From an uncultured Reyranella sp. (GTDB lineage: Bacteria; Pseudomonadota; Alphaproteobacteria; Reyranellales; Reyranellaceae), in NCBI GenBank assembly GCA_937915145.1, contig CALDNT010000035.1, forward strand, positions 1-48,337: a DNA stretch of 48,337 bases, written 5' to 3'. The notes under the pieces are model-generated. The model saw only the letters and a list, made by a program, of their open reading frames with translations. It did no database searches and was not told the DNA's origin. The position numbers and the translations under genes were made by a program. Within the stretch, counting starts at the first letter, position 1, and each line of letters starts with the position of its first letter. Positions 1 through 20,574 of this stretch are shown here, in pieces.

Positions 1-1325
1 CGGTGTGGGCCGGGGCTGCCAATGCCACCCCATCGGGCAAGCTCACGAAGGAATGTTGGGAGACCATCCGTGACATGATCGCGAATGCGGCGAAGAACGC
101 CGGCAAGCTCGACGCCATCTGTCTCTCCCTGCATGGCGCGGCGGTGACGGAAACCGAGGACGACGCCGAGGGCGCGCTGCTCGAAGCGTTGCGCGGCATC
201 GTCGGGCCGGGCATTCCCATGGTTGCGACACTCGACCTGCACGCCAATGCCACAACCAAGATGGCCAAGCACGCCAATGCACTGGTGAGCTACCGCACCT
301 ATCCGCACATCGACGGCTACGAGCGCGCGGCGCAGGCCGCGGCGCTGGTGCAGGAGGCGCTGGAGGGCAGGAAGAAGCCGCGCTGTCTTCTGGTCCAGCC
401 GGCGATGCTGCAAGGCGCCGACCATGGCCGCACGACGCAACCGGGCCTGATGCGCGACCTTCTGGCCAAGGCCGACGCCTTCGAGAAGGAACCGGGGATC
501 AACGTCGTCAGCGTTCAGGCGGGGTTTACCTGGTCCGACATTCCCTACACCGGCCCGTCGGTGGCGGTCAGTCACGAGCCGGCCGCCGAGGCTCGCGCCA
601 AGGCGGTGGCGGCGGCGATGCTGGACGAGATCTGGAAGCGCCGTGACGAAAGTTCGTCGGACTACCGGCCGATCGCGGATGCGATCACCGCGGCGCGGGC
701 GGGCGTGGGCAAGGAGGGGCCGCTGGTCGTGGCCGACGGCACCGATAATCCCGGCGGAGGCGGCTACAACGATACGACGCGTGTCCTGCAGGCGCTGATC
801 GACGCCAACGTCGAGAACGTGGCGTTTGGCACGATCATGGATCCCGGAACGGTCCAGCAGGCCATCGAGGCCGGTGTCGGTGCCGAGATCGACGTCGTGC
901 TGGGCGGCCACACCGATCCGTCGATGGGCGGGCCGGTCAAGGCCAAGGCGATCGTGAAGATGCTCTCCGACGGCGAGTTCAAGAACGACGGGCCGATGAA
1001 TGCCGGCGTCGAAACCTCGATGGGGTCGACGGCCGTGCTGCGGATCGGCGGCATCGACGTGGTGACGATTTCCAACCGGATCCAGACCATCGACCTGCAG
1101 GTCTTCCTGAGCCAGGGCATCGATCCCCGAACCAAGAGCGTCGTGGTCGTGAAGAGCGTGCAGCATTTCCGCGCCGCCTACGCGCCGATCGCGCGCGAGG
1201 TGATCCTGGTCGATTCCGGCGGCATCTGCTCGCCCGACATCAGCCGGCTCAACTTCACCAAGCTGCGCCGCCCGATCTGGCCGTTCGACGGCATCAATGA
1301 TCCCTATGCCGGCCAGCGCGCATGA
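1..1325 (+). CDS. M81 family metallopeptidase (MlrC-like), 5' partial
   Basis: The reading frame is already open at the left edge, so the start lies outside the window; 440 codons are visible from base 3. MlrC-type proteins are usually about 490-500 residues, so perhaps 60 residues are missing. Visible landmarks are LSLHGA (visible residues 41-46) and TLDLHAN (D78-x-H80), which correspond to the metal-binding part of the N-terminal MlrC domain, followed by the C-terminal MlrC_C region. The family takes its name from the microcystin-degradation protease MlrC, but most members hydrolyse unknown small peptides or amides. The stop codon overlaps the next gene's ATG (ATGA), implying translational coupling with the dioxygenase. 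Family is confident; the substrate is not known. Confidence 0.9.
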   Translation, partial: VWAGAANATPSGKLTKECWETIRDMIANAAKNAGKLDAICLSLHGAAVTETEDDAEGALLEALRGIVGPGIPMVATLDLHANATTKMAKHANALVSYRTYPHIDGYERAAQAAALVQEALEGRKKPRCLLVQPAMLQGADHGRTTQPGLMRDLLAKADAFEKEPGINVVSVQAGFTWSDIPYTGPSVAVSHEPAAEARAKAVAAAMLDEIWKRRDESSSDYRPIADAITAARAGVGKEGPLVVADGTDNPGGGGYNDTTRVLQALIDANVENVAFGTIMDPGTVQQAIEAGVGAEIDVVLGGHTDPSMGGPVKAKAIVKMLSDGEFKNDGPMNAGVETSMGSTAVLRIGGIDVVTISNRIQTIDLQVFLSQGIDPRTKSVVVVKSVQHFRAAYAPIAREVILVDSGGICSPDISRLNFTKLRRPIWPFDGINDPYAGQRA

Positions 1326-2323
1326 GCCTGACGTGCGAAGCGCCGCTGCCCGGTGCGGCTTTCGGTGCAACACTGCGCCTCGCCGGAACCGCGCGCGAGA
1401 TCGTCGCCGCGGCAGAACGCGATAGTGCGGCCCTGCCGGCGGCGCTGGCCGAGGCCAGGGGGCTGCTGCTGCTCCCGGGAATGGGCGCGATCACCGACGA
1501 TCCCGGCCTGCTCATTCGGCTGAGTCGCACCTTCGGGCCGGAAGTCGAGGATTATCGCCACACGCTCACCGACCTGAAATCGGTGCATGTGGCGGTACCG
1601 GAAATCCTGCTGGTCTCGAACATGCCCCCGGTCAGCAAGGCGCCGCCCAAGCGGCCGGAACCGCCAATCGCCGCCGACGGGCTGATCCCGGTGCAGTATC
1701 CGCATCGCAAGGGCTGGCACACCGACCAGAGCTACCGCCGGCCGCCGCCCGACATCTCGCTGTTCTATGCCGTCACGCCGGCCACCCGGGATGCGGGCCA
1801 GACGCTGTTTGCCAACGGCATACTTGCCTACGAGGCGCTACCGCCAGCGCTCAAGACCAGGGTCGACGGGCTCGAAGGCCTGCATGCCCAGCCGGGCTCC
1901 GGCCGTTCACGCGAAGCCGCACTTGCCGGCCGCATGCCACGCGCTTTCGCAACTCACGAACGCTCACAGCGCCAGCCGGTCGTGCGCACGCATCCGGTGG
2001 CCGGCGAACGCTCGTTGTATCTCTGCGAATGGGGCCAGATGGACTGGTTCGAGGGGCCGTTCGTCGGCATGGAGCCCGGACCGAACGGCGCCGGCGCGGC
2101 GCTGCTCGACGAGATCATGGCGCACCTGACGGAGCGGCGCTTCTGCTACGCCCACGAATGGACGCAGGGTGACCTATTGATCTGGGACAATCGCTGCCTC
2201 GTGCACGCGGCAACGTGGTTCGACGGCGACAGGGAAGGACGCCTGATGTGGCGTACGACCGTCCACGGCAATCCGGGTCCGCACTACGCCGGTGAAACCA
2301 AGAGCTGGATTCCAGCAGCCTAG
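1322..2323 (+). CDS. TauD/TfdA-family Fe(II)/2-oxoglutarate dioxygenase
   Basis: 333 residues. The Fe(II) triad of the TauD/TfdA fold is visible: H133-x-D135 in GWHTDQSYRR and the distal H295 in RCLVHAA, followed by the 2-oxoglutarate-binding arginine region (GRLMWR, R307/R311). The enzyme would hydroxylate a small organic acid or sulfonate-type substrate with release of CO2 and succinate; the specific substrate cannot be read from sequence. Its ATG overlaps the stop of the M81 peptidase gene (4 nt), so the two probably act in one catabolic pathway. Its stop overlaps, tail to tail, the stop of the convergent amidase gene (CTAG at 2320-2323). Confidence 0.9.
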   Translation: MSLTCEAPLPGAAFGATLRLAGTAREIVAAAERDSAALPAALAEARGLLLLPGMGAITDDPGLLIRLSRTFGPEVEDYRHTLTDLKSVHVAVPEILLVSNMPPVSKAPPKRPEPPIAADGLIPVQYPHRKGWHTDQSYRRPPPDISLFYAVTPATRDAGQTLFANGILAYEALPPALKTRVDGLEGLHAQPGSGRSREAALAGRMPRAFATHERSQRQPVVRTHPVAGERSLYLCEWGQMDWFEGPFVGMEPGPNGAGAALLDEIMAHLTERRFCYAHEWTQGDLLIWDNRCLVHAATWFDGDREGRLMWRTTVHGNPGPHYAGETKSWIPAA

Positions 2324-3222
2324 ATGACCCGGGTCATGCCCGCCGATTCGAGAACGGCGCGGGGGATCATGAGCCGCGCGCACATGACCGGCCGCGGTGA
2401 GGTGCCGATCCGGAGCTCGCCCGTGATGCCGAGCAGCATGTAGGCTTCCTCGCGGGAGAGCGTCGTCCGGCTGGCCACGAAGTCGACGGCGCCGCGCGAG
2501 GCATCTTCGGTCGCCGCCTCCACGGTCGGTCCCCAACCCAGGATCTGAATGGTATCGGGCTGCTCGATGATCGGCCGGTCGAGCTTCACGCTCTTGTTCA
2601 GGCCGATGCGGGCGCGCACCGAGGCGCTGCATTCGATGCCGGTGCCGGAGATGATGCCGTCACTGATCACCGCATGCGGATCGGCGAAGAACACCTGCGC
2701 GCCGGGATGAATCACCGGCAGATGCACCCGCGAGCCGACGCCTACGTCCTTCTGGTCGAAATCGCCGCCATAGGCACCGGCGTAGGACGGTTTGTAGCCT
2801 TCCGGCGGCATGGTCGAGATCGTGCCGAGGTTTGGGCAGAGTGGAATAGGAATGCGGTCGCCGAACCACGCCTTGCCGTCGCGTACCGGACAGGCGAGCG
2901 CCTTGGGGTCCGAAAATTCATCCTTGAGTACGCCGAACTGCTTGAGGATCGCGGTAACGCCATCTACGCGCGGTGTAATCTCGATCAGGTCGATGGCCAC
3001 GGCATCCCCGGGTTCTGCCCCATGCACGATGATCGGGCCGGCGATCGGTGTCAGCGGATGGCCCTCGCATTCCGGCGTGAACGGGGTTGGGATCGTCCTT
3101 ACGTCCGGGACCTCCGCCAGCGAACCCAGCACCTCAACGCGAAATTCCTCGTCAGGCTGAACCTTCATGAGGGCCGGCGTGTTGGGGTTGATGCTGAAGA
3201 GGTACGAATGCCGGTAAGCCAT
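2320..3222 (-). CDS. acetamidase/formamidase family protein
   Basis: 300 residues, full length for the FmdA/AmdA family. It shows the family's typical blocks: an N-terminal VQPDEEFRVEVL strand region, GPIIVHGAEPGDAVAIDLIEI in the middle (residues about 62-82), and a later block around VHLPVIHPGAQVFFADPHA. These zinc-type amidases release ammonia from short aliphatic amides such as formamide or acetamide. It is probably cotranscribed with the downstream 2OG oxygenase homologue's neighbourhood only loosely, since it lies 27 bp downstream of that gene on the same strand. It converges on the M81/TauD pair. Substrate range is not determined by sequence. Confidence 0.88.
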   Translation of the reverse strand: MAYRHSYLFSINPNTPALMKVQPDEEFRVEVLGSLAEVPDVRTIPTPFTPECEGHPLTPIAGPIIVHGAEPGDAVAIDLIEITPRVDGVTAILKQFGVLKDEFSDPKALACPVRDGKAWFGDRIPIPLCPNLGTISTMPPEGYKPSYAGAYGGDFDQKDVGVGSRVHLPVIHPGAQVFFADPHAVISDGIISGTGIECSASVRARIGLNKSVKLDRPIIEQPDTIQILGWGPTVEAATEDASRGAVDFVASRTTLSREEAYMLLGITGELRIGTSPRPVMCARLMIPRAVLESAGMTRVI

Positions 3223-16030: not shown

Positions 16031-16531
16031 TCAGCGCTCCTGGCGGGCACGGTCGGCGGGCTTGCGCCGCAGGGCCTGGCGGCATTCCGCGCTGTCGATG
16101 CGGCCGTCCTTGTCGAGGTCGCAACGTGCGAAGTTGCGCTCGGCCTGGAGCATGAACTCCGCCAGGGTGACGCTGCCATCCTTGTCGGCATCGAGCCGCT
16201 GGAAATAGGCCGACTGGCGCAGCACTTGGCGGTCGGTCGGCAGCACGCTGCTGCCGGCGGCGGGCGTACGGGCAAACAACTCGTCCTGTGTGAGCTTGCC
16301 GTCGCCGTTGGCGTCGAGCCGCTTGAAGCGTGCTTCCTGGGCTGCGGTCCATTCGCCGCGGTCGACGACGCCGTCCTTGTTGGTGTCGTAGCGCATGATG
16401 CCGCTCGGCGGGCGGGCGGGCCTGGCGGCTGGGGCCGGGCCGTCGCCCGGCGCGGCGGGGTCAGGCGCGGCAAGGGCGGGGGCGGCGAGGAGAAGCAGGG
16501 CGGTCGTGGCCAGGGCGGTGAAATTCGGCAT
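16031..16531 (-). CDS. exported EF-hand protein with four EF-hand loops
   Basis: 166 residues from ATG at 16531 (MPNFTALATTALLLLAAPALA), which gives a Sec signal peptide followed by a proline/alanine-rich spacer. Four calcium-binding loops follow: DTNKDGVVDRGEW, DANGDGKLTQDEL, DADKDGSVTLAEF and DLDKDGRIDSAEC. It resembles a short relative of the seven-loop protein at 9775-10896. The likely role is Ca2+ binding outside the cytoplasm; the target is unknown. Its upstream region ends 52 bp before the insertion element at 16584, so its native promoter may have been displaced by the insertion. Confidence 0.85.
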   Translation of the reverse strand: MPNFTALATTALLLLAAPALAAPDPAAPGDGPAPAARPARPPSGIMRYDTNKDGVVDRGEWTAAQEARFKRLDANGDGKLTQDELFARTPAAGSSVLPTDRQVLRQSAYFQRLDADKDGSVTLAEFMLQAERNFARCDLDKDGRIDSAECRQALRRKPADRARQER

Positions 16532-16575
16532 TGGGAAGTGTCCTAAAAGTTGTATCAGGATATGGAAATACACCT

Positions 16576-16583
16576 TCCATTTC
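16576..16583. repeat. left target-site duplication TCCATTTC
   Basis: An 8-bp sequence, TCCATTTC, directly abuts the left inverted repeat and is repeated exactly at 19084-19091. Eight bp is the duplication length known for IS1595-family elements. Confidence 0.93.
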
Positions 16584-16607
16584 GGCGATTGTATACTTGA
16601 CATAGTA
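16584..16607 (+). repeat. left terminal inverted repeat of the IS1595-family element
   Basis: A 24-bp end matching 23 of 24 positions with the reverse complement of 19060-19083; the only mismatch is A versus G at position 19. The repeat also contains the -35 box of the transposase promoter. Confidence 0.93.
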
Positions 16608-16624
16608 CACCCCATCCCTATAAT
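16597..16624 (+). promoter_or_regulatory. sigma70-type promoter of the transposase gene
   Basis: TTGACA at 16597-16602 and TATAAT at 16619-16624 are both perfect consensus boxes separated by 16 bp. The -35 box lies inside the left inverted repeat. Transcription would begin close to 16631, immediately before the transposase ATG at 16632, and no Shine-Dalgarno sequence is present, so the message is probably leaderless. Confidence 0.75.
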
Positions 16625-16631
16625 CAGCGGC

Positions 16632-17570
16632 ATGAACACCGCCGATCTGACCAACCCCATCTTCAACGACGAAACCGCCGCCCGTGAGTACCTGGAGTCG
16701 AAGCGCTGGCCCGACGAGGTTTCCTGCGCCCATTGCGGCTCGCTGGAGGGCATCACGAAGATGCAGGGCAAGAGCCATCGGCCCGGCCTGTTCAACTGCA
16801 ATGCCTGCCGCAAGCCATTCTCAGTGACGATTGGGACGGTCTACGAGCGCAGCCATATCCCCCTGCACAAGTGGCTGTTAGCGACCCACCTGATGACGGC
16901 CAGCAAGAAGGGCATTTCAGCCCATCAACTGCACCGCATGCTCGGGATCACCTACAAGTCGGCTTGGTTCATGGCCCACCGCATCCGCGAGACCTTGGAC
17001 GACAAGGGCACCGCGCCCATGGGCGGCAATGGCGGCACTGTGGAAGCCGACGAGACCTACATCGGCACCAAGACTGCCCACACCAAGGGACAGGGCACTG
17101 GCCACAAGATGGCCGTGGTGACGCTGGTAGAGCGCAACGGCCGCGCCCGTTCGTTCAAGGTGGACAAGGCTACCGCCGCAGACGTGGTGCCGATTGTCCG
17201 CGCCAATGTCTCGAAAGAGGCCAAGTTGATGACGGACGAGGCCCGCCTGTATTGGGCCGTCGGTAAGGAGTTCGCCAGCCACGGCCGCGTCGCTCACAAG
17301 CTGGGCGAGTACGGTCGCGGCGAAGTCCACACCAACACGGTCGAAGGCTACTACTCGATCTTCAAGCGCGGCATGAAAGGCGTCTATCAGCACTGCTCAG
17401 AGCGTCACCTGCAGCGCTATCTGGCAGAGTTCGATTTCCGCTACAGTAACCGCGCCAAGCTGGGCGTGAGCGACAAGGAACGCGCCGAGAAGGCCATCAA
17501 GGGCATCGTCGGCAAGCGTTTGACCTATCGGCGGATTAACGAGCGGGCCGAAGCCTCTACGCTGGGGTAA
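16632..17570 (+). CDS. IS1595-family (ISXO2-like) transposase
   Basis: 312 residues. An N-terminal zinc ribbon has C32-x2-C35 and C56-x2-C59. A helix-turn-helix-like segment (ISAHQLHRMLGITYKSAWFMAHRI) follows, then a DDE catalytic domain with D140 in VEADETYIG, D202 in LMTDEA and E238 in HTNTVEGYYS. These match the ISXO2-like DDE transposase domain. The frame is open upstream into the antisense of the EF-hand gene, but the promoter and terminal repeat place the true start at 16632. All catalytic residues are present, so the enzyme looks functional and would mobilise this element. Confidence 0.95.
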   Translation: MNTADLTNPIFNDETAAREYLESKRWPDEVSCAHCGSLEGITKMQGKSHRPGLFNCNACRKPFSVTIGTVYERSHIPLHKWLLATHLMTASKKGISAHQLHRMLGITYKSAWFMAHRIRETLDDKGTAPMGGNGGTVEADETYIGTKTAHTKGQGTGHKMAVVTLVERNGRARSFKVDKATAADVVPIVRANVSKEAKLMTDEARLYWAVGKEFASHGRVAHKLGEYGRGEVHTNTVEGYYSIFKRGMKGVYQHCSERHLQRYLAEFDFRYSNRAKLGVSDKERAEKAIKGIVGKRLTYRRINERAEASTLG

Positions 17571-17916
17571 TGCCAAGCTGCGAAGGCTTTTCGCGTCGCT
17601 CTTGGACGACGATGGCACAACTTAAAATAGGTGTGACGATTCTGTCACACGCGGGCGAATGTTTTCGTTCTGTGCCTGTGGACATCCTCTAGGGATGGGA
17701 CTCCGAGCGCCATTTCTGCGAAGATGTAGCCGCGATCAGAAATGAGAAGGCCACCCGCTTGCAACAGGTGGCCCGACTCGATGGTCGCTACCGCAATGGT
17801 TGGAAAGCCGGCGGCAGCAAGTTTGTCTAACGAGAACAGTCTTAAGTTATTTTGACTCTTCTATCAAGCTAGTTGTTCGCCGGCTCTCCTTCACTAATCA
17901 AAGAAGGATTGAGCAA
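17571..17916. other. IS-internal region without a convincing gene
   Basis: 346 bp between the transposase and the Cas2-like gene. It contains a perfect 7-bp inverted repeat, GTGTGAC/GTCACAC (17631-17650, 6-nt spacer), that could be an operator. A frame open from 17693 to 17830 (45 codons, starting just after a TAG and beginning WDSERHFCEDV) reads like the tail of a protein but has no start codon. The opposite strand of the same stretch is also open without a usable start. I suspect a gene remnant but cannot name one. Confidence 0.4.
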
Positions 17917-18195
17917 GTGGCAAACTTTGTTGTGTCTTACGATCTAAACGGACCTAAGCCGTCTCACAAAGAGATGGACGATCATATTGCGAAGGTTTCC
18001 TCGGTTCGAGGACGGATTCTGGAGACGGTTTGGTATATCGCGTACTCGGGAACTGCGGCCCAACTTCGCAACCACCTACAGACGATCCTCGGGAATGAGG
18101 ATTTGCTTTTTGTAGCTCAAGCGACTTCTGCTGCATGGACTAAACTCCTTGTAAGCGATGAGTCTCTCCTCAATGCTTGGAACGCCAACGCGTAA
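17917..18195 (+). CDS. small Cas2/VapD-fold-like protein (often annotated SinR family), IS passenger
   Basis: 92 residues from GTG 17917, chosen because AGAAGG lies about ten bases upstream and because homologous proteins, as I recall them, begin at this point; an in-frame TTG at 17800 would add 39 non-conserved-looking residues. The start VANFVVSYDLNGPKPSHKEMDD is a beta strand ending in the YD (D9) characteristic of Cas2/VapD-like ferredoxin folds, and ILETVWYI forms the typical later strand. Such stand-alone proteins are sometimes labelled SinR or Cas2-like; their function is unknown, and no CRISPR array or cas1 is present. It is followed by a strong terminator. It lies within the insertion element, apparently as cargo. 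Confidence 0.7.
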   Translation: MANFVVSYDLNGPKPSHKEMDDHIAKVSSVRGRILETVWYIAYSGTAAQLRNHLQTILGNEDLLFVAQATSAAWTKLLVSDESLLNAWNANA

Positions 18196-18203
18196 TGAAT
18201 AGG

Positions 18204-18235
18204 GAAGCCGGCTTTAGCGAGCCGGCTTCTTTTTC
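18204..18235 (+). terminator. intrinsic terminator after the Cas2-like passenger gene
   Basis: A 10-bp perfect stem GAAGCCGGCT/AGCCGGCTTC with a 6-nt loop is followed by TTTTTC, nine bases after the stop codon. The stop codon of the opposing 39-aa gene (18214-18216) lies in the stem-loop, so the two convergent genes share this structure. Confidence 0.88.
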
Positions 18236-18333
18236 ACCGATTTCTTGACCGCCTTCTTCGGTTGAGGCGGAGTCGCAAGCATTCTCTTAACGGCCGCTTC
18301 AAAGGCCGGGTTGAGCTTGGGGGGCTTGGGCAT
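18214..18333 (-). CDS. 39-residue basic protein, IS passenger
   Basis: ATG at 18333 to TAA at 18214, 39 residues, beginning MPKPPKLNPAFEAAVKRML and ending in a lysine-rich tail (KKAVKKSVKKKPAR). The first half has the look of a small conserved helix (NPAFEAAVKRMLATPP), a pattern I recall from short hypothetical proteins of alphaproteobacteria, and the tail could bind nucleic acid. AAGG lies about ten bases upstream of the ATG. It is convergent with the Cas2-like gene and divergent from the HEPN-like gene, whose TTG start overlaps its own start codon by one base. It could be chance, but composition and position argue for a real gene. Confidence 0.5.
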   Translation of the reverse strand: MPKPPKLNPAFEAAVKRMLATPPQPKKAVKKSVKKKPAR

Positions 18334-18938
18334 TGGTTGGCGACCTTGAAGATGAAGACGGCTTGTTACCTGGAACCATTGTACCAGCAAACCTGTTGCC
18401 GGACATTGGGGCAGTAGCAGTCTATTTCGGGCACCTCGACAATCTATTGAATCGCATTCTTTGGGCGCTCTTGGGGCTAAAGGCGGAGCGCGGTCGTGTC
18501 GTCACTCAGTCAATCAACAGCTTCGCATCTCGTGTAGAACTGTTCCGGGCACTCGCCATTCAGAAACACCCCGCGCACAAACCGCGCATCGCCCTCATAG
18601 CCCAGCATCTCCGCTTCGCGGGCGACGACCGGAACCGACTGATGCACGACGACATAACGCAATCGCAACATGACACCGAGCGAAAGGACGTAGGGTCCGT
18701 TACAGCCTTTCGGGGTGACGACGCCTATCTCTTTGAGATCAAGACGCTCCGGGATCTACAGCAGCGACTTTGGCACCTCTACGACCTGTTGACCGACTTC
18801 GGGACCCAGAAGCAAGGCTGGCTAGACGCGCCTCTTCCATCGCTCGATAAATCTCCGACACTGCTTCTGCGGCGGGCGAAAGAGGAGAAGCCAAAGCAGG
18901 ACAAACCCCAACGCCCGCGCAAACCATCTCGGCGGTAA
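18333..18938 (+). CDS. uncharacterised protein with HEPN-like R-x4-H motif, IS passenger
   Basis: 201 residues from TTG 18333 (start uncertain; no good ribosome site is visible). The central part is helical: AVYFGHLDNLLNRILWALLG (residues about 29-48), a second helix pair around INSFASRVELFRAL, then GDDRNRLMHDD with R100-N-x3-H105. Helix pairs followed by R-x4-6-H are the signature of HEPN-fold proteins, many of which are RNases of toxin-antitoxin or defence systems. I infer a HEPN-like role but cannot confirm it. The last 40 residues are Lys/Arg/Pro rich and overlap an antisense gene, so that tail may be non-functional. It has no similarity to transposition proteins. Confidence 0.6.
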   Translation: MVGDLEDEDGLLPGTIVPANLLPDIGAVAVYFGHLDNLLNRILWALLGLKAERGRVVTQSINSFASRVELFRALAIQKHPAHKPRIALIAQHLRFAGDDRNRLMHDDITQSQHDTERKDVGSVTAFRGDDAYLFEIKTLRDLQQRLWHLYDLLTDFGTQKQGWLDAPLPSLDKSPTLLLRRAKEEKPKQDKPQRPRKPSRR

Positions 18939-18963
18939 TCTCGATCTCGTCTTTGGTGCCCAT
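18739..18963 (-). CDS. 74-residue protein antisense to the HEPN-like gene, IS passenger
   Basis: ATG at 18963, with AAGGA nine bases upstream, a better ribosome site than any of the other passenger genes has. The N-terminal part KDEIEITAEMVCAGV...EIYRAMEEARLA resembles a family of small hypothetical proteins of alphaproteobacteria and their phages that share an ITPEMIEAG core followed by an AM-rich helix; this is from memory. The last 30 residues are low-complexity Ser/Arg/Ala. It overlaps 200 bp of the opposing 201-residue gene. An 11-bp inverted repeat lies just upstream (18980-19024). Confidence 0.55.
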   Translation of the reverse strand: MGTKDEIEITAEMVCAGVGVCPALASPLSPAAEAVSEIYRAMEEARLASLASGSRSRSTGRRGAKVAAVDPGAS

Positions 18964-18979
18964 AACGGGCCGTCCTTAC

Positions 18980-19024
18980 GGGACCCCCTCAGGAAATTTC
19001 AGCGATGTATAGCGAGGGGGTCCC
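18980..19024. repeat. 11-bp inverted repeat near the right end of the element
   Basis: GGGACCCCCTC at 18980-18990 pairs perfectly with GAGGGGGTCCC at 19014-19024 across a 23-nt loop. There is no T-tract, so it is not a typical terminator. It could insulate the passenger genes from outside transcription or fold in the leader of the 74-residue gene. Confidence 0.7.
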
Positions 19025-19059
19025 TCGTGTCCTGACATGGCAGGCCCAGATTATGGGCT

Positions 19060-19083
19060 TACTACGTCAAGTATACAATCGCC
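19060..19083 (-). repeat. right terminal inverted repeat of the IS1595-family element
   Basis: The reverse complement of this end begins GGCGATTGTATACTTGAC and matches the left end at 23 of 24 positions. Confidence 0.93.
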
Positions 19084-19091
19084 TCCATTTC
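19084..19091. repeat. right target-site duplication TCCATTTC
   Basis: An exact copy of 16576-16583, abutting the right inverted repeat. Confidence 0.93.
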
Positions 19092-19176: not shown

Positions 19177-20574
19177 ATGGCATACGATTACGATCTCTAC
19201 GTCATTGGCGCCGGTTCCGGCGGCGTACGCGCCTCGCGGATTGCCGCCGGTCACGGCGCGCGCGTCGGCATCTGCGAGGATTTCCGCGTCGGCGGTACCT
19301 GCGTGATCCGCGGCTGCGTGCCCAAGAAGCTCCTGGTGTACGGCTCGAAGTTCGCACACGACTTCGAGGATGCGGCCGGCTTCGGCTGGACCGTTCCGGC
19401 GCCGACCCATTCCTGGACGACCTTGCGCGACAATGTGAACAAGGAGGTCGATCGCCTGAACGCGGTCTATCTGCGCCTGCTCGACGGGGCGGGCGTGAAG
19501 TTGCACATGGGCCGCGGCCGACTGATGGATCGCCACACCATCCAGGTCGGCGAGCAGACGATCACCGCCGAGAAGATCCTGGTCGCCACCGGTGGCCGTC
19601 CGGTGATTCCGCCGATCCCCGGGCACGAACTCGCCATCACGTCCAACGAGGCGTTTCACCTGGCCGATCTGCCCAAGCGCATCACCATCGTGGGCGCGGG
19701 CTATATCGCCGTTGAATTCGCCGGCATCTTCAGGGGGCTCGGCAGCAAGGTCGACCTCGTGCTGCGGCGCGACCGCGTGCTGCGCGGTTTCGACGAGGAA
19801 TGCCGCACCTTCGTCCATGAGGCGCTGGCTGAGAGCGGTATCCGCCTCCGTACCGAGATGGAGATCGCGCGTATCGTCGCCAAGGGTGCTGGCAAGAATG
19901 ACAGCGGCCCCTATGAGATCCACACGCCGGGGGGCGGCATGTTCGAGACCGACCTCGTAATGTACGCCACCGGCCGCGCCGCCAATACGGCAGGCATCGG
20001 GCTGGAAAAGGCGGGCGTGCAACTCAACAAGGCCGGCGCCATCGCCGTCGACGAATGGTCGAAGACCACGGCCGACAATATCTGGGCGGTGGGCGACGTC
20101 ACCGACCGCATCAACCTCACCCCGGTCGCGATCATGGAAGGCCATTGCTTCGCCGACACCGAATTCGGCAACAAGCCGCGCAAGCCCGACCATCGCGACG
20201 TCCCGTCGGCGGTGTTCTGCCAGCCCGAGATGGCCAATGTCGGCCTGACCGAGGAGGAGGCGAAACTGCGGCTGGGCACGCTGCGCGTCTACACTGCAGC
20301 GTTCAGGCCGATGAAGTACACCGTTTCGGGCCGCCACCAGCGGACCTTCATGAAGATGATCGTCGAAGCCGCGACCGACAGGGTGGTCGGCATCCACATG
20401 GTGGGCGACGACGCCGCCGAACTGATCCAGGGCCTTGCTGTCGCCGTGAAGGCGGGAGCCACCAAGGCGCAGTTCGATGCCACGGTCGGCATTCATCCCA
20501 CGGCGGGCGAGGAGTTCGTCACCATGCGCACGGCGCGGGCCGATCCGGCGCCGGAACGCGCCGCAGCGGAGTGA
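19177..20574 (+). CDS. gor: glutathione-disulfide reductase
   Basis: 465 residues from ATG 19177 ([21 protein letters not shown]), giving the FAD-binding GxGxxG at the usual distance from the N-terminus. The redox-active disulfide is C42/C47 in [11 protein letters not shown]. The NADPH-binding Rossmann motif is [14 protein letters not shown], the second FAD motif is WAVGDVTDR, and the catalytic C-terminal His-Glu pair is in GIHPTAGEE. It reduces glutathione disulfide with NADPH in the cytosol. It lies 86 bp after the right flank of the insertion element; the insertion may have separated it from part of its promoter. A longer in-frame GTG start exists at 19141 but has weaker support. Confidence 0.93.

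Follow-up and report, generated by a model that had tools for sequence, protein, structure and literature searches.

Why should a transposon keep one tiny basic gene, with its start codon adjoining whatever cargo is present? This question is raised by a 2,500-bp unit (positions 16584-19083) within a stretch of 48,337 nucleotides from an uncultured Reyranella sp. (assembly GCA_937915145.1, contig CALDNT010000035.1), referred to here as the window. An earlier note on this DNA had read the unit as an IS1595-family element with cargo unrelated to transposition. In our analysis, it is likely to be a compact and probably autonomous IS1595 transposon of the transporter insertion sequence (tIS) type, with a constant small gene and exchangeable cassettes of nuclease, toxin-antitoxin or defence type. 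The subgroup to which it belongs is mainly alphaproteobacterial and has a fixed frame, composed of the left end and transposase, a slot, the small basic gene, another slot and the right end.

Transposases of the IS1595 family recognise both ends of their unit and insert it with an 8-bp duplication of the target. The window element is a complete unit of this family. Its 29-nt terminal arms are 90% complementary, with one mismatch in the first 24 nt (23/24), and an exact 8-bp target-site duplication (TSD) flanks it; the ends, duplication and coordinates given in the earlier note were all reproduced. When the two flanks were joined with one TSD copy and used as a query, about 38 same-genus genomes aligned contiguously over the junction, with about 74-83% identity in the flank alignments. 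Because the joined flanks align unbroken across the junction in these relatives, the insertion is real and its boundaries, previously called certain, are right. The empty site, which the same note had suggested looking for in close relatives, is evidence of past insertion by the window element.

The transposase frame is open, and its product matches the IS1595 profile NF033547 with E 5e-58 (196 bits, cut-off 75), PF12762 with 123 bits (cut-off 27) and PF12760 with 41 bits (cut-off 25), which bears out the family assignment made from the letters. Candidate catalytic residues, chosen by inspection, are D140, D202 and E238. Membership of the family is supported by a transposase domain above cut-off, flanking inverted repeats and the 8-bp duplication, and the feature that defines a tIS, passenger genes dispensable for transposition, is seen in cargo that varies while ends and transposase persist. 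The same genome encodes three further full-length transposases of the subgroup (contigs C131, C91 and C261; 55-69% identity), and the one on C131 lies in a complete element of 1,994 bp, flanked by the exact duplication ACCTGCAA.

The element end, with up to two mismatches, is present in 22 of 388 relatives, and an exact search of the genome collection found it in 56 stretches, most of them alphaproteobacterial. Pairing of ends yielded 32 distinct complete elements, including that of the window. Such a search for sisters had been proposed earlier as a check; the ends indeed recur on complete elements, while the cargo between them mostly differs. All 32 encode an IS1595 transposase, 39-100% identical to that of the window (P0001), and exact 8-bp duplications flank 25 of them. 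The elements are 1,869-3,236 bp long (median 2,346), and their duplications are AT-rich, with 26% GC against 59% in the flanks. No transposase-only element was found among the 32, each of which has about 0.84 kb or more outside the transposase gene.

Clustering of all non-transposase open reading frames (ORFs) of the complete elements defined a constant companion of the transposase. A basic gene of 40-60 codons is present in 29 of the 32 elements (28 recognised by clustering, one by eye) and falls into two families, A (QLDRFKEAARELETDDDE...) in 16 elements and B (RMLxTPPxPxK...) in 12, including the 39-amino-acid protein of the window; a thirteenth, B-like copy lies at locus L068. Since differences between copies are concentrated at third codon positions (614/372/932 over the three positions for A and 35/19/103 for B), both small genes are coding. 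The encoded proteins carry a basic tail; family A had no match in NCBIfam or in the phage collection searched, and family B gave one chance-level match to Pfam and none that was convincing. On a maximum-likelihood tree of the transposases, the A/B split needs a single change (support 100/99), whereas shuffled labels need 9.6 on average and none of 500 shuffles came as low as the observed value. Of 11 subgroup transposases, 8 have a family A gene within 3 kb, as against 0 of 30 other IS1595 transposases (p=1.7e-6). Conversely, 8 of 9 family A matches and 14 of 17 strong family B matches, the latter always on the opposite strand, stand beside a subgroup transposase, rather than being found only as chromosomal neighbours without the ends, a case considered in the earlier note. 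Homologues of the 39-amino-acid gene occur in other elements and support it as an ORF. Because it is inherited together with the transposase, it belongs to the backbone, so that the term cargo applies to the larger genes and not to this one.

The DNA around this backbone changes from copy to copy, and non-homologous cargo stands in near-identical frames. At L049 and L106 the transposase genes are 85%, the small genes 88% and the last 24 nt 100% identical, and the genes between them are unrelated; L005 and L081 are 83% identical through the small gene and then again only over the last 25 nt. Compared with its two nearest kin, whose transposases are 91% and 85% identical to its own, the window element has DNA in common only in the transposase, the small gene and the ends; among the closest sisters DNA identity is 84-87% in the transposase and 75-82% in the small gene, with no common cargo DNA. 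The nearest sisters with the same ends do lack the window's cargo, which goes halfway to what the earlier note had named as a refutation, but they carry other cargo instead of none.

Recognisable cargo matched PF13274, PF12686, PF08861, PF01850 and PF01936. It includes SocA/Panacea (L090, L091, L099), DUF3800 (L073, L106, with L111 clustering with the L106 protein), DUF1828 (L055, L123), PIN (L078 above and L065 below cut-off), NYN (L051) and Cas2-like proteins (the window, L058, L091, L084, L050), and HEPN-like proteins predominate in family B elements. In elements on Methylobacterium and Roseomonas plasmids the cargo includes VapC/PIN proteins, and PADLOC named one candidate, PDC-M24B, for the DUF1828 cargo. 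These types are dispersed over the transposase tree and cross the border between A and B. For the slot-1 genes of genome G014 and of L051, HicA/HicB- and WYL-like readings were dropped for want of Pfam support.

Cargo and small gene meet closely. In elements with family B and HEPN-like genes, divergent start codons overlap as CATG in 9 of 12, a count that depends on start codons assigned by inspection. In the window the ATG of the small gene and the TTG of the HEPN-like gene share one base (CATTG), and at L098 the start codons abut. Cargo in the same direction as the small gene mostly overlaps it by 4-41 nt, and divergent DUF3800 neighbours begin 5-6 nt away. Because cargo overlaps or adjoins this start codon, the boundary of the exchanged DNA tends to fall there, which could be due either to recombination or to selection for coupled expression.

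The possibility that the four non-transposase ORFs of the window arose by chance was ruled out by their homologues in other elements and by coding signal. Their first identification, as Cas2/VapD-like, basic, HEPN-like and antisense, agrees with the present analysis, for the Cas2-like protein by its predicted fold and for the HEPN-like one by its motif and helical model. Their combination, which had seemed unfamiliar, is not unique, as the same order recurs once (G112/L094). The AlphaFold2 (AF2) model of the slot-1 protein has the order beta-alpha-beta-beta-alpha-beta, and in a Foldseek search of the PDB Cas2 or Cas2-like proteins made up nearly all of its top matches (E 3e-4, probability 1.00), with VapD lower; the predicted fold thus supports a Cas2-type ferredoxin-like assignment. 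By sequence, the protein matched phrog_1090 (E 2.6e-14), its profile gave weak Cas2 matches only among PDB sequences, and a plasmid search gave three distant matches.

In the HEPN-like proteins of 12 elements, partly picked by their motif, R100 and H105 of R-x4-H are the sole invariant columns. Between pairs of these proteins, identity is equal to that in shuffled controls and shows no correlation with that of the transposases (r=0.02). The model of the window protein is all-helical, with a predicted local distance difference test (pLDDT) score of 74. Foldseek returned no significant match to it, HEPN proteins did not stand out from other helical bundles in VIA-align, and neither a sequence relative in the PDB nor a match in the plasmid search was found. 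The antisense 74-amino-acid family occupies the right end of about 13 loci and accompanies family B wherever a small gene is seen.

It can be proposed that recognition of the two ends allows the transposase to mobilise the entire unit, and that cargo would be exchanged by recombination between constant blocks of different copies. The HEPN-like protein of the window, and perhaps the Cas2-like one, may act as an RNase, and such cargo could serve a toxin-antitoxin or abortive-infection type function favouring retention of the element. More broadly, recognisable cargo may act through RNA cleavage and so bring a benefit by addiction or against phages. Since the start codon of the small gene in most elements overlaps the cargo gene or lies right next to it, the small protein would be made together with the cargo, and may moderate the cargo or transposition. 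Several points weigh against this proposal. We infer both the function of the small protein and the activity of the cargo, and nuclease or toxin type describes the recognisable cargo only, because several cargo ORFs had no Pfam match. PADLOC gave weak matches only, for Cas2b (E 0.009) and NYN. The HEPN-like assignment is based on R-x4-H and on a helical model of medium confidence; among the fold matches of this model, HEPN toxins score Z about 7, no higher than other helical bundles. Three subgroup transposases have no detectable small A gene, and most of the genomes are drafts or metagenome-assembled genomes.

Other explanations differ mainly in the role given to the small gene. It is extremely improbable that the extra genes represent chance capture of local chromosomal genes. 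Some cargo genes are unmatched in the libraries used, as such an origin would allow, but the exact duplications lie outside the cargo, 32 elements have a common layout, and the empty sites of relatives carry no cargo, which refutes this explanation for the window copy. It is also unlikely that the small basic protein is the antitoxin of an adjoining toxin, the element being an IS1595 unit with a two-gene type II addiction module. The close adjacency and the start or stop overlaps of small gene and cargo speak for such a pair, as do the nuclease-type partners HEPN, PIN and NYN; however, a single small family pairs with unrelated folds (HEPN, NYN and DUF1828, or SocA, DUF3800, PIN and DUF1828) and tracks the transposase, not the cargo. 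Because the small gene is strictly co-inherited with the transposase, an antitoxin dedicated to each toxin is disfavoured.

That same perfect co-inheritance, together with the restriction to the subgroup and the basic tail, is what could be expected of a transposition factor acting in end binding, target choice or regulation, with the other genes as neutral or host-beneficial passengers. We regard this as somewhat unlikely, as the start codon of the small gene adjoins the cargo gene and not the transposase, the three subgroup transposases mentioned above have no detectable copy, and the libraries tried matched no DNA-binding domain in it. Unlikely too is the idea that families A and B are general element partners, adaptors by which unrelated cargo of nuclease type is tied to the element in its expression or control; if true, few modular carriers of exchangeable toxin or defence genes would be smaller than these elements.

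A tIS-type transposon with a constant small gene and exchangeable cassettes, the reading that we prefer, has partial parallels. Passenger-carrying IS1595 elements go under the name tIS, and in ISNha5 the passenger is reported to be a transcription regulator (Siguier, Gagnevin and Chandler 2009, cited in PMC11891212). ISNha5 resembles the window subgroup in its transposase family and in having a passenger gene between the ends; the subgroup differs in its co-inherited small basic gene and in the nuclease, toxin-antitoxin or defence-type families that fill its slots. Passenger genes in IS1595 are therefore already known, and the constant small gene with cassette exchange is new relative to the literature searched, which held no description of either in IS1595 and did not cover the original 2009 paper. 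In Tn3-family transposons, several unrelated toxin-antitoxin pairs occupy one conserved place beside the resolution module (Lima-Mendez 2020, PMC7157771). The likeness lies in unrelated cassettes of toxin-antitoxin type, independently acquired, at a conserved place in a transposon; Tn3 elements have a resolvase and res, whereas the window subgroup has its constant gene of 40-60 codons, and any cognate pairs in it are putative.

A distant IS1595 element of genome G101 (L144-L147, about 1124-3050) occurs in five copies of about 1.9 kb with ends GGTAATTATATACATTTATAC. It was ruled out as a cargo-free comparator, since it carries a passenger with a KilA-N domain (PF04383, E 3.5e-24). It is similar in its IS1595-type transposase, TATAC-containing ends and single passenger gene, and differs in its transposase subgroup (36-37% identity), in the fixed nature of that passenger and in that no small basic gene was seen. 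Among proteins, the window's slot-1 product resembles ribonucleases of the Cas2/VapD fold in its predicted ferredoxin-like fold and the Asp ending strand 1, but its gene stands alone inside a transposon, with no cas1 partner among the element's ORFs. The slot-2 product has the R-x4-H motif in common with HEPN-MNT toxins (SO_3166; 7ae8/7ae9), and its all-helical model may reflect a similar bundle, but its neighbour is the 39-amino-acid basic ORF, and an MNT nucleotidyltransferase domain is absent from the adjoining genes.

An element barely bigger than an insertion sequence can thus serve as a modular carrier, with its cargo replaced from copy to copy. The 20-bp end and a gene of about 45 codons provide a handle for collecting cargo of unknown function, possibly including new toxins or anti-phage proteins. 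The features of the window element are collected in Table 1.

Table 1. Features of the window element and its target duplication (positions in the window)
Feature	Position	Strand	Evidence
Left TSD copy TCCATTTC	16576..16583	.	Read from sequence; present once at empty sites in relatives
Left terminal inverted repeat, 29 nt, GGCGATTGTATACTTGACATAGTA...	16584..16612	+	Recurs on the 32 complete elements
Transposase of the IS1595 family, 312 aa, with zinc ribbon and ISXO2-like DDE domain	16632..17570	+	Profile matches
Cargo slot 1: Cas2-fold protein (predicted), 92 aa, GTG start	17918..18195	+	Homologues, predicted fold, phrog_1090
Terminator-like hairpin after the Cas2-like gene	18204..18234	+	Perfect inverted repeat I22, then T run
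Constant small basic gene of the subgroup (family B, 39 aa)	18214..18333	-	Homologues, tree, coding signal
Cargo slot 2: HEPN-motif protein (RNRLMH), 201 aa, TTG start	18333..18938	+	Motif, homologues, model
Right-end antisense ORF, 74 aa	18739..18963	-	Family common to ~13 loci
Right terminal inverted repeat, 29 nt	19055..19083	-	Inverted-repeat analysis
Right TSD copy TCCATTTC	19084..19091	.	Read from sequence

The insertion is intergenic and leaves both neighbours intact, an EF-hand protein gene on the left (16031-16534, minus strand) and a pyridine-nucleotide-disulphide oxidoreductase gene on the right (19177-20574), which is probably glutathione reductase. In genome G008, a sister element with other cargo lies at the same target nucleotide in the opposite orientation, spanning L157 (G008:C104) around 1904 and L156 (G008:C9) around 636. 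The duplications of the window element (TCCATTTC) and of the G008 element (GCCATTTC), each on both sides, differ in the first base, T/T against G/G. Synonymous divergence (dS) of gor from the window species is 0.61 for G008 and 0.46-0.70 for several empty-site species, and transposase dS is 0.45. Given this one-base difference, and because other species are nearer than G008 by gor dS, we favour two separate insertions into the same site over one inherited insertion that was later flipped, though without proof of either.

Element ends were also seen on contigs assigned to bins of Cyanobacteria, Mucilaginibacter, Chloroflexi, Rubrobacter and Acidimicrobiales (L081, L076, L110, L122, L113, L117), for which misbinning and wider transfer are possible alternatives. 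Small-B genes without a subgroup transposase nearby occur at L130 (G004:C182), L134 (G134:C74) and L131 (G091:C98), two of them with a HEPN-like neighbour, and L131 has a single element end; these loci are possibly remnants or non-autonomous derivatives. At L061 (G153:C85), two subgroup elements apparently sit side by side on a single contig, and each has a small-B gene of its own. Near the right end of the window element, a perfect 11-nt inverted pair lies at 18980-19024.

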